Source: Hydrogenobaculum sp. (GTDB taxonomy: Bacteria; Aquificota; Aquificia; Aquificales; Aquificaceae). From it: a stretch of 32,929 nucleotides of DNA. The position numbers and the translations under genes are program-made. The notes under the pieces were generated by a model. The model was given only the letters and a program-made list of their open reading frames with translations, was not told where the DNA came from and did no database searches. The DNA lies in assembly GCA_002878215.1 (NCBI GenBank), contig PNJC01000146.1, forward strand, positions 1 to 32,929, read 5' to 3'. This document shows positions 13,886 to 25,580 of the stretch, in pieces (the first letter of the stretch is position 1; each line of letters starts with the position of its first letter).

Positions 13886-14926
13886 TCAATAATAGCTTTT
13901 TTCTCCGCTTACTTTACCACTAAACACTTTATATGCGTACCTAGTATAGTATATAACTATAGGCATAAATATGACCGTTACAATAAGCATCACTGTTAGA
14001 GTGAGGGTAGAAGAAGAAGCGTTAAACACCGTTAGGCTGTAATCTGGATTTATGCTTGAGCGCATTAGTACTGGGAAAGAAGCGCAGGCTACATTTAAGA
14101 CTGTGAAAGCATTGACAAGCCCAGAAGCATAAACAACTTTATCGTATTTACCAGATTTTAGCAAAATTACATAAAGCACAACACCTACAAGCATCACTAG
14201 AGGTATAGCAAACAGTATTGGATAGGTGAAATAATTTTTATACAAAAACGGGGCTTCTTGCATCGCTAATACGTTTGTCAATATTACAGATATTACGTAT
14301 CCTACAACACTTATGCTAGCGTATTTTTTAGCCATCTCGAAAACAGAACCTTGGGTTTTAAGCAACAAGTATGCTGCTCCATGCATAGCAAACATGAAAA
14401 AGCTTACCAATCCCATTGCAAGGGGTACTGGTCTTAAAAGTGTGAAAAATGTACCATGGTATACAGCGTCTTTGTCTATTGGAACTCCTACCACAGCATT
14501 CCCTACGGCAACTCCAAAAAGAATGGCAGGCAAAACGTTACCAAGCCAATATATAAAGTCGAATGTATGTCTCCAAGCCATAGATTCTCTTTTGTTGCGA
14601 TACTCAAAAGCCACAGCCCTGCCTATCAAAGCCCACAAAACAAGAAGTATAGCAAGATAGAATCCAGAGAAAGAAGCAGCATAAACAGTGGGAAAAGCGG
14701 CAAAGAGCATGCCGCCACCAGCTATAAGCCAAACTTCGTTTCCATCCCATACTGGTGCAACAGAATTATAGAGAGCTATCCTATCATGCTCCTTTTTCAT
14801 AAATATCATGGGAAAAGCACTACCTAAGTCAAACCCATCGGTTATTGAGTAGCCAATTAAAAATACACCTGCCAAAAGAAACCAAAGGCCTTGCAACGTA
14901 AAAAGCCCATCTGGTAATATACCCAT
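13886..14926 (-). CDS. cydB: Cytochrome bd ubiquinol oxidase subunit II
   Basis: LQGLWFLLAGVFLIGYSITDGFDLG and PVWDGNEVWLIAGGGMLFAAFPTVYA motifs. AGGAGG sits 7 nt before the ATG at 14926; the ORF track start (14932) is an upstream TTG. Confidence 0.96.
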   Translation of the reverse strand: MGILPDGLFTLQGLWFLLAGVFLIGYSITDGFDLGSAFPMIFMKKEHDRIALYNSVAPVWDGNEVWLIAGGGMLFAAFPTVYAASFSGFYLAILLVLWALIGRAVAFEYRNKRESMAWRHTFDFIYWLGNVLPAILFGVAVGNAVVGVPIDKDAVYHGTFFTLLRPVPLAMGLVSFFMFAMHGAAYLLLKTQGSVFEMAKKYASISVVGYVISVILTNVLAMQEAPFLYKNYFTYPILFAIPLVMLVGVVLYVILLKSGKYDKVVYASGLVNAFTVLNVACASFPVLMRSSINPDYSLTVFNASSSTLTLTVMLIVTVIFMPIVIYYTRYAYKVFSGKVSGEKSYY

Positions 14927-14938
14927 TTCCAATCCTCC

Positions 14939-16483
14939 TTAAGAAATTCTGTTGCTATCGTTTAAATCGGTCCTGTTAGCGGCAAGACCAACACCTAAAC
15001 CAGTAGAAGGTGATGAAGAAGGGGCAACCTCAGTATATTCATACTCTCTAACCTTTTTGACCATAGTAGTTACATATACGTAAAATAGTAGTATGTATAT
15101 TGTTACGAAGGTAAACACAGAAAACATTACATTTGAAGTAGAATTAAAAGATACGGCATCGGCAGTTTTAAGCATGCTAGTAACTATCCAAGGTTGACGA
15201 CCTACTTCAGCAGTCATCCATCCAAGCTCAGAAGCTATGAAAGGAAGAGGTATCGAGTATAACACCGTCTTTAGAAAAGCTTTGTTTTGATAAATGGTAC
15301 CTTTCTTATACAGATAAAGCCCCCACAAAGTTACGAAAGCAAAGAAGAAACCAAGCCCTACCATTATATGAAATGGCATGAAAACTAAATTTATAGACGG
15401 TAAATCTTTTAAAGATATATTGTATGCCTTAGCATAAGACTCATCTGCTACTATCTTATCCTTTATAGCTGGGTTTGGATTAGAAGTGTATTGAGCCTTT
15501 AACATATTTGCTTCATTTGCATAGTTTTGGGCTTTTTGATCATACATAGTAATTAGATCTTTGATACCATAAATTTTCGCATCGAAATTATGATAAGCCA
15601 AGAAAGACAATAAACCAGGGATTTGTATAAAAGGATAAGTCTTTTGAGCGCTTTGGTCAACATAGCCAAACACATCTAAGGAAGCTGGTTGTTCAGTTTT
15701 CCATTTTCCTTCCATCATTGCAAATTTAAGTGGTTGATATTTTGCTACGAGTTGTCCAGCCGTATCACCTACTATTATTTCCGCCACCGATACTATGACG
15801 GTAAATATGAGAGCCACTTTTAATCCAGCTTTAGCCATATCTATATTTCTGTTTCTTAGCAAGAAGTAAGCCATAACACCCATAACAAAGAAACCGGCAG
15901 TAACCTGACCAGCAGTCACCGTATGCAAAAATCTTATTATCGTAGTATGGTTTATAACGGCTTCCCAAAAGTTTGTGAGTTCAGCCCTTATACCTTGAGG
16001 AGTTTGAACTATTTTATATCCAGCTGGCGTTTGCATCCAAGAGTTTGCTATTAAAATCCAAAGAGCGGATAAGTTGCTACCAAGAGCTACCATCCAAGCT
16101 GAAAAAGTGTGCATACCATCAGATATTCTGTCTTTTCCAAAGAGAAATATACCTATAAAGGTTGACTCTAAAAAGAAAGCCATCAAACCTTCAATGGCAA
16201 GAGGGGCTCCAAAGATATCACCTACAAACTTTGAATAGGTAAACCAGTTTGTTCCAAACTCAAATTCCATAGTAAGACCAGTAGCTACACCAGCGGCAAA
16301 ATTTACGGCAAAAAGCTTCATCAAAAACATAGCCAATTTGTCGTACTTTGGATCTTTAGTTTTGTAGGCTATGGTCTTGACTATAGCTATGAATACAGAG
16401 AGCCCCAACGTAAGGGGCACATAGATAAAATGGTTGATCGCCGTAAAGGCGAATTGGAACCTGGACAAATCAAGTAGGTCCAT
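14939..16483 (-). CDS. cydA: Cytochrome bd ubiquinol oxidase subunit I
   Basis: LSRFQFAFTAINHFIYVPLTLGLS, GVATGLTMEFEFGTNW, EGLMAFFLESTFIGIFLFG and TAEVGRQPW; AAAGGAGG upstream of the ATG. Confidence 0.97.
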   Translation of the reverse strand: MDLLDLSRFQFAFTAINHFIYVPLTLGLSVFIAIVKTIAYKTKDPKYDKLAMFLMKLFAVNFAAGVATGLTMEFEFGTNWFTYSKFVGDIFGAPLAIEGLMAFFLESTFIGIFLFGKDRISDGMHTFSAWMVALGSNLSALWILIANSWMQTPAGYKIVQTPQGIRAELTNFWEAVINHTTIIRFLHTVTAGQVTAGFFVMGVMAYFLLRNRNIDMAKAGLKVALIFTVIVSVAEIIVGDTAGQLVAKYQPLKFAMMEGKWKTEQPASLDVFGYVDQSAQKTYPFIQIPGLLSFLAYHNFDAKIYGIKDLITMYDQKAQNYANEANMLKAQYTSNPNPAIKDKIVADESYAKAYNISLKDLPSINLVFMPFHIMVGLGFFFAFVTLWGLYLYKKGTIYQNKAFLKTVLYSIPLPFIASELGWMTAEVGRQPWIVTSMLKTADAVSFNSTSNVMFSVFTFVTIYILLFYVYVTTMVKKVREYEYTEVAPSSSPSTGLGVGLAANRTDLNDSNRIS

Positions 16484-16506
16484 AATCTATACCTCCTTTC
16501 AAAAAA

Positions 16507-16602
16507 TTAATCAAGTATAAAAGGATGCAGCACTCCTACAGCTGCCATAACACCAAATGCACCAACTGCATATTCCAGAAAATCACGTCTTGAAGCTTCC
16601 AT
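16507..16602 (-). CDS. Small ORF (31 aa) with a twin-arginine motif and one TM helix, first gene of the cyd operon
   Basis: My own translation of the reverse complement: MEASRRDFLEYAVGAFGVMAAVGVLHPFILD*. AAGGAGG lies 8 nt before the ATG, TAA stop, 23 nt gap to cydA. Below the size cut-off of the supplied ORF track. Confidence 0.72.
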   Translation of the reverse strand: MEASRRDFLEYAVGAFGVMAAVGVLHPFILD

Positions 16603-16616
16603 ATGCAAAACCTCCT

Positions 16617-16642
16617 TAGGTCGATTAGCGCCAACCAACCTA
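16617..16642 (-). promoter_or_regulatory. Predicted leader hairpin abutting the Shine-Dalgarno of the small ORF
   Basis: Minus-strand RNA UAGGUUGG-(UUGGCGCUAA)-UCGACCUA, 8 pairs including 2 G-U, immediately followed by AGGAGG. Confidence 0.35.
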
Positions 16643-16846: not shown

Positions 16847-17287
16847 TTATTTGAAACGAGCGTTTAGGGCTACACCAAAATCTAATTGAACATCGTTTTG
16901 ATAAAGTTCAACAAGTTCGTTACCTTTGTTAGTGGGTCTTATATATGTATTTTTGGTAATAATATCTTTTTCGTAATAATCAGCATGCCTTCTTATGTCA
17001 GAGGTGTATATCTCTGGCGGCGGTTCTTGATAAGTTTTTGATAAATTAAGAGATTTTATATTGTCCACTAAAGCGCTTACAGAAGGAAGTCTGTTGAAAA
17101 AGAATGAAAATCCTACGCTTTGCTTCTCATCTCTTGGTAAAGGGGATGATACGCTGGCGTATGCACGATGATTGGTTTTGAAATTTACATCCTTATAAGG
17201 TATTTTTATATCAAGTTTTAGCGGTTTAGAAAAAGCAAAATGTCCAAATACAAAAAGCCCTAAAACAACCACTCCCCGCTTTAACAT
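16847..17287 (-). CDS. Hypothetical exported protein (146 aa)
   Basis: From the internal start MLKRGVVVLGLFVFGHFAFSKPLKLDIKIPYKD (signal-peptide-like); the longer ORF (start 17437) would run into aspS. Confidence 0.6.
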   Translation of the reverse strand: MLKRGVVVLGLFVFGHFAFSKPLKLDIKIPYKDVNFKTNHRAYASVSSPLPRDEKQSVGFSFFFNRLPSVSALVDNIKSLNLSKTYQEPPPEIYTSDIRRHADYYEKDIITKNTYIRPTNKGNELVELYQNDVQLDFGVALNARFK

Positions 17288-25023: not shown

Positions 25024-25314
25024 TTATTTAAATCTCTTATATACTTTTGTATGCTTGCCAAGCATAACAAGGATTAACTCATCATCCTTGATTTTAAATA
25101 TCATCACCAAATCTCCTTGTATATGTAAAGCTTCGTATCCTTTTAAATCACCAACAAGTTTATGCCTTCTGTATATTTGGCTTATAGGATCATTATGTTG
25201 AAGCTTTTCTATTATACTTTTTATCTCATTAAATATTTCATCGTTGTATTTTCCACTCTTTTTTAACTCAATAATATCCTTTTCAAAACCTTTTTCCGTT
25301 TTTAGTTTTAACAA
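25024..25314 (-). CDS. YafQ/RelE-superfamily mRNA interferase toxin
   Basis: HKLVGDLKGYEALHIQGDLVMIFKIKDDELILVMLGKHTKVYKRF matches the YafQ C-terminal layout including its His residues; downstream of a RelB/DinJ-like gene. Confidence 0.88.
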   Translation of the reverse strand: MLKLKTEKGFEKDIIELKKSGKYNDEIFNEIKSIIEKLQHNDPISQIYRRHKLVGDLKGYEALHIQGDLVMIFKIKDDELILVMLGKHTKVYKRFK

Positions 25315-25316
25315 AT

Positions 25317-25580
25317 TTACAAGCTTAATTTGTCGAACAGATCATCTACATCTTTATATTCGTTTATATTTTTGCCATTTTCTACATTTTTTATCCTTTT
25401 CTTAAGCTCTGGTGAGGGGATATAACCACTTGACTTAACCAATTGTGCAAACTCATCAGGATCAATTTTACTCAATATAAGTCTAATGGCCTCAGTAAAA
25501 GTTAAGCCATACTGCTCAAATATTTTTTTTGATTTAGCATAAGTATTTTCATCTATCACTATACTAGTTTTTTTCATCAT
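25317..25580 (-). CDS. RelB/DinJ-family antitoxin
   Basis: KKTSIVIDENTYAKSKKIFEQYGLTFTEAIRLILSKI (RelB/DinJ ribbon-helix-helix N-terminus); 2 nt from the toxin gene. Confidence 0.87.
   Translation of the reverse strand: MMKKTSIVIDENTYAKSKKIFEQYGLTFTEAIRLILSKIDPDEFAQLVKSSGYIPSPELKKRIKNVENGKNINEYKDVDDLFDKLSL

Follow-up and report, generated by a model that had tools for sequence, protein, structure and literature searches.

The 31-codon open reading frame (ORF) directly upstream of cydA in this window (the whole stretch of 32,929 nucleotides analysed here) is, with a probability of roughly 88%, an ordinary gene remnant, namely the 5′ stub left from a second Rieske gene that belonged to the cydAB operon and is specific to the genus. 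Its peptide is homologous to the N-terminus of bc1-type Rieske proteins, full-length genes lie at the syntenic position in congeners, a deletion separates those genes from the short ORF, another species has lost the gene altogether, and the genome under study carries a full bc1 Rieske elsewhere. Throughout, G000 denotes the genome under study (a draft of 153 contigs) and G001–G004 its congeners, of which G002 is a complete genome.

A Rieske signal-anchor ahead of cydA

The ORF occupies positions 16507–16602 of the minus strand, translates as MEASRRDFLEYAVGAFGVMAAVGVLHPFILD and ends in TAA (16507–16509). A Shine–Dalgarno (SD) sequence AAGGAGG (complement of 16611–16617) is spaced 8 nt from its ATG; an alternative upstream TTG start, which has no SD, would extend the same frame to 46 codons. 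The gap of 23 nt between the stop codon and the cydA ATG (16483) contains cydA's own AAGGAGG (16492–16498, minus strand), identical in all five genomes. Length, ribosome site and distance to cydA are thereby as the first-pass annotation had described them, and its placement of the ORF in the cydAB operon also stands.

Matches to the bc1 Rieske N-terminus, to genes of congeners and to a Pfam family together indicate that this is not a chance ORF. The peptide is 66% identical over 29 aa to the N-terminus of the bc1 Rieske of its own genome (E = 3.6e-9), and 90, 86 and 69% identical over 29 residues to the genes at the same locus in G004, G003 and G001, with E of about 1e-12 for the G004 and G003 matches. 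Pfam family UCR_Fe-S_N (PF10399) matches residues 2–29 with 30.5 bits (gathering cut-off 24), and the NCBIfam Tat signal model TIGR01409 is also above its cut-off. The proposal that the peptide resembles a Rieske Tat signal-anchor is thus borne out by both families and by the congener genes. The model for the full-length bc1 Rieske (TIGR01416) stays below cut-off at 19 bits against 97.4, and the 2Fe-2S domain with its CTHLGC and CPCHG motifs is absent from the ORF, which ends at codon 31. Residues 1–28 align with Aquifex aeolicus Rieske-I (PDB 6KLS/6KLV), which shares the N-terminal MEASRRDF of the Tat signal-anchor. Unlike the bc1 Rieske, the stub ends short of the 2Fe-2S domain, and its place is ahead of cydA rather than in the bc1 gene cluster; likewise the segment described by PF10399 (the bc1 Rieske TAT signal) begins a longer protein in the family but stands alone here.

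An intact gene at the same position in congeners

The order aspS, 146-residue ORF, [Rieske], cydA, cydB, obgE is common to G000, G002, G003 and G004, while in G001 the cyd locus is split over two contigs. Both oxidase genes of the window are intact on the minus strand: cydA (14939–16483, cytochrome bd subunit I, 514 aa; PF01654, 1e-161) and cydB (13886–14932, subunit II; PF02322, 6e-86). The 146-aa ORF that separates aspS from the former Rieske gene (16847–17287, minus strand) is in place in all five genomes. It has no Pfam match and diverges much faster than its neighbours, with 49% identity to G004 compared with 92% for CydA. Elsewhere in the window, a toxin–antitoxin pair lies at 25024–25580 (minus strand), with a YafQ-type toxin (PF15738) and a RelB-type antitoxin (PF04221).

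In three congeners, G004 (L003), G003 (L004) and G001 (L005), a full bc1-type Rieske of 183 residues is encoded directly upstream of cydA and retains the CTHLGC and CPCHGS cluster motifs; the G003 protein scores well above the TIGR01416 cut-off. Between G003 and G004 the cyd-locus Rieske shows a dN of 0.009 and a dS of 0.45, which argues that the gene is strongly constrained where it is intact. The ribosome site of the stub is an inheritance from the full-length gene: the same AAGGAGG is found in G003 and G001, and AAGGAGA in G004. The short ORF therefore has an intact ortholog at the same locus, with flanks that can be aligned on both sides of the gap. Conservation of the stub itself upstream of cydA in relatives, on which the first-pass annotation had made its proposal depend, was not found: no examined genome other than G000 has it, the others carrying either the full-length gene or, as in G002, nothing.

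The deletion and a loss in a second species

When G000 is compared with its congeners, the nucleotide alignment is unbroken up to Rieske codon 26 and picks up again within the gene's final bases. The ATG codons of the Rieske gene and of cydA are 582 or 581 nt apart in the intact congeners and 119 nt apart in G000, a net loss of 463 bp (582 to 119 nt). The junction falls on a 4-nt microhomology, ATCC (16523–16526, minus strand), with ...GTGCT(A/G)TATCC on the 5′ side and ...TGGGATCC on the 3′ side in G003; the longer junction sequences are GTGCTATATCC (5′ side) and TGGGATCCTTATACTTGATTAAT (3′ side) in G003, and GTGCTGCATCCTTTTATACTTGATTAAT in G000. Beyond it, positions 16506–16522 (minus strand) hold the remnant of the gene's last bases and stop region (CCTTATACTTGATTAAT in G003, CCTTTTATACTTGATTAAT in G000). 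Two extra Ts beside the join place this old tail in another frame. Codons 1–26 of the ORF thus correspond to the Tat signal-anchor of the Rieske gene that the cyd operon formerly had, and its C-terminal FILD, with the new TAA, to the shifted 3′ end of the old gene. As read from the 153-contig draft assembly, one deletion of about 460 bp truncated the cyd Rieske gene of G000.

A whole-genome search of G000 with the full cyd-type Rieske matched the stub and the bc1 copy only; nothing of the missing 2Fe-2S domain was recovered from the rest of the assembly. A decayed Rieske gene had been named in the first-pass annotation as the outcome that would speak against a new subunit, with a frameshifted iron-sulfur remnant as its mark. 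Decay is essentially what was found, but by internal deletion and not by frameshift, so that downstream of the stub no iron-sulfur remnant is present in another frame and only the gene's last bases are left.

Loss of the gene is tolerated in a related species. G002 has cydAB at the same place without any Rieske sequence there; its sequence follows that of G003 as far as the ribosome site of the Rieske gene and agrees with it once more over the 25 nt that precede cydA. G003, which still has the gene, is the sister of G002 (93.9% identity over 5.3 kb of flanking genes, versus 87.4% to G000), from which it follows most simply that G000 and G002 lost it separately. The breakpoints in the two genomes also differ. 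Synonymous distances in cydA run opposite to those in aspS, cydB and obgE, being lower for G000–G004 (0.69) than for G000–G002 (0.79), a possible hint of recombination of the Rieske–cydA stretch between lineages.

Fate of the stub and alternative readings

The proposed course of events starts from an ancestor in which a duplicate of the bc1 Rieske would have lain directly before cydA and been read from its own ribosome site. In G000, about 460 bp lying between ATCC repeats, from codon 26 to near the stop codon, would then have been deleted; with the entire 2Fe-2S domain gone, the anchor would have been fused to the gene tail, leaving the 31-codon ORF. Start codon, SD and hydrophobic helix of the stub are intact, and translation of it probably remains possible. 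The Tat signals that anchor Rieske proteins stay uncleaved (PMC7317946), so the peptide, which carries no cofactor domain, could insert in the membrane, most likely without a function there. An inert relic is the simplest reading, because G002 manages with neither the gene nor the stub and a ribosome site of its own precedes cydA in each of the five genomes; at most, the stub would be translated as a passive leader for cydA.

The first-pass annotation had proposed a new accessory subunit of the bd oxidase, possibly derived from a Rieske anchor. In this reading the stub would serve cytochrome bd as a single-helix subunit, in a role either retained or newly acquired, its Rieske anchor docking on CydAB in the manner of CydX or CydS; selection would have retained the orphan anchor as a helper helix after the deletion, which would imply that the intact cyd-operon Rieske of relatives docks on the bd oxidase as well. 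Besides the intact translation signals and helix, the position in the operon speaks for it, as do the small proteins CydX, CydY and CydZ of other cyd operons (PMC4325964), which like the stub are short, have one hydrophobic helix and belong to cydAB operons. So does the pattern of substitution: the 26 retained codons differ between G000 and G004 by four synonymous changes and one nonsynonymous change, although the sites are few and the changes undated relative to the deletion. Such low decay may reflect either a recent deletion or weak continued constraint. Against a subunit, the only replacement that sets G000 apart from the other cyd copies, Y26H, falls at a position occupied by Tyr in every one of 19 aligned full-length Rieskes, and the C-terminus is the old tail read out of frame. 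The distribution at the locus, with a full gene or nothing in relatives and cydAB kept in G002 without either gene or stub, also counts against a new subunit. The genes of the known small subunits follow cydB, and their products have a conserved Trp where the helix begins, with the motif YxxWxxGx15E/D in CydX (PMC4325964), whereas the stub lies before cydA, has Rieske ancestry and lacks both Trp and YxxWxxG. Overall, a retained or newly gained subunit role finds no positive support, and we regard it as quite improbable. Nor did we find support for the other suggestion, a Tat-targeted assembly factor.

A CydX-like identity, considered separately, was rejected on the position before cydA and on the motif (no Trp in 31 residues), in agreement with the first-pass annotation. 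Downstream of cydB, neither the window nor the loci that extend past this gene contain a small ORF with an SD, and among Aquificota relatives no conserved small ORF recurs before cydA or after cydB.

Two further readings leave the peptide aside. The stub could serve as a translated leader that aids cydA translation by coupling, the peptide itself being unused, and its strong SD, its shortness and a stop codon 23 nt before the cydA start would suit such a role. We consider this highly unlikely, given that the AAGGAGG of cydA is invariant across the five genomes and that G002 has no SD-bearing leader ORF upstream of cydA. It is also very doubtful that misassembly created the apparent deletion and that G000 in fact carries a full cyd-type Rieske gene. 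A draft in 153 contigs with two similar Rieske paralogs, which in congeners show conversion-like similarity to each other, might be prone to such an error; however, the junction sits at 4 nt of microhomology inside one gene and not between paralogs, no trace of the missing domain occurs elsewhere in the assembly, and loss of the gene does happen, as the complete genome G002 demonstrates. The gene-remnant reading carries a general caution. Even when a short ORF has a perfect ribosome site, carries a Tat motif and sits within an operon, it may be the scar of a deletion, and comparing the locus across a few congeners is enough to settle that question.

Distribution and origin of the second Rieske

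The other Rieske of G000, also of 183 residues, is encoded on a different contig and is followed directly by cytochrome b (named from sequence), which marks it as the bc1 copy. Among 136 Aquificota genomes searched, a second Rieske match occurs only in the source genus, the other genomes with a match having one, and no Rieske lies beside cydA outside that genus. The genus is most likely Hydrogenobaculum, and its family, Aquificaceae, is supported by a member, G007, whose Rieske has the sequence of the A. aeolicus structure. Across the Aquificota genomes compared, the cyd-locus Rieske is therefore a genus-specific duplicate. In 80 named CydA relatives from other genomes, a Rieske is found on the examined stretch only in L124 (Sulfurovum), and there on the opposite strand. 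In the tree, the cyd and bc1 Rieskes of the genus form one clade apart from those of other Aquificaceae (support 100/100), within which the two types fall on separate sides of a moderately supported branch (90/77), a topology consistent with duplication of the bc1 Rieske either inside the genus or shortly before its origin. Mesorhizobium loti likewise carries a second bc1-type Rieske gene, but its copies lie in two Rieske/cytochrome bc1 clusters (PMC6256036), whereas the congeners have their intact second copy in the cydAB operon. Titles and abstracts of open-licence literature yielded no account of a cyd operon that contains a Rieske gene.

A side result of this analysis is a duplicated bc1 Rieske that one genus has in its cydAB operon and that two of the five species compared have lost or truncated; it offers a modest lead on the rearrangement of branched respiratory chains. 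For the intact cyd-operon proteins (L003, L004, L005), candidate roles are an alternative bc1 subunit or a partner of the bd oxidase. The two paralogs of one genome can be locally identical: within G004, the bc1 copy (L061) and the cyd copy (L003) share DGDPGVHLPNTPIFHCPCHGSLYTPWGD, and within G003 the corresponding pair (L062 and L004) shares a C-terminal FWDPYT, a pattern that suggests gene conversion.
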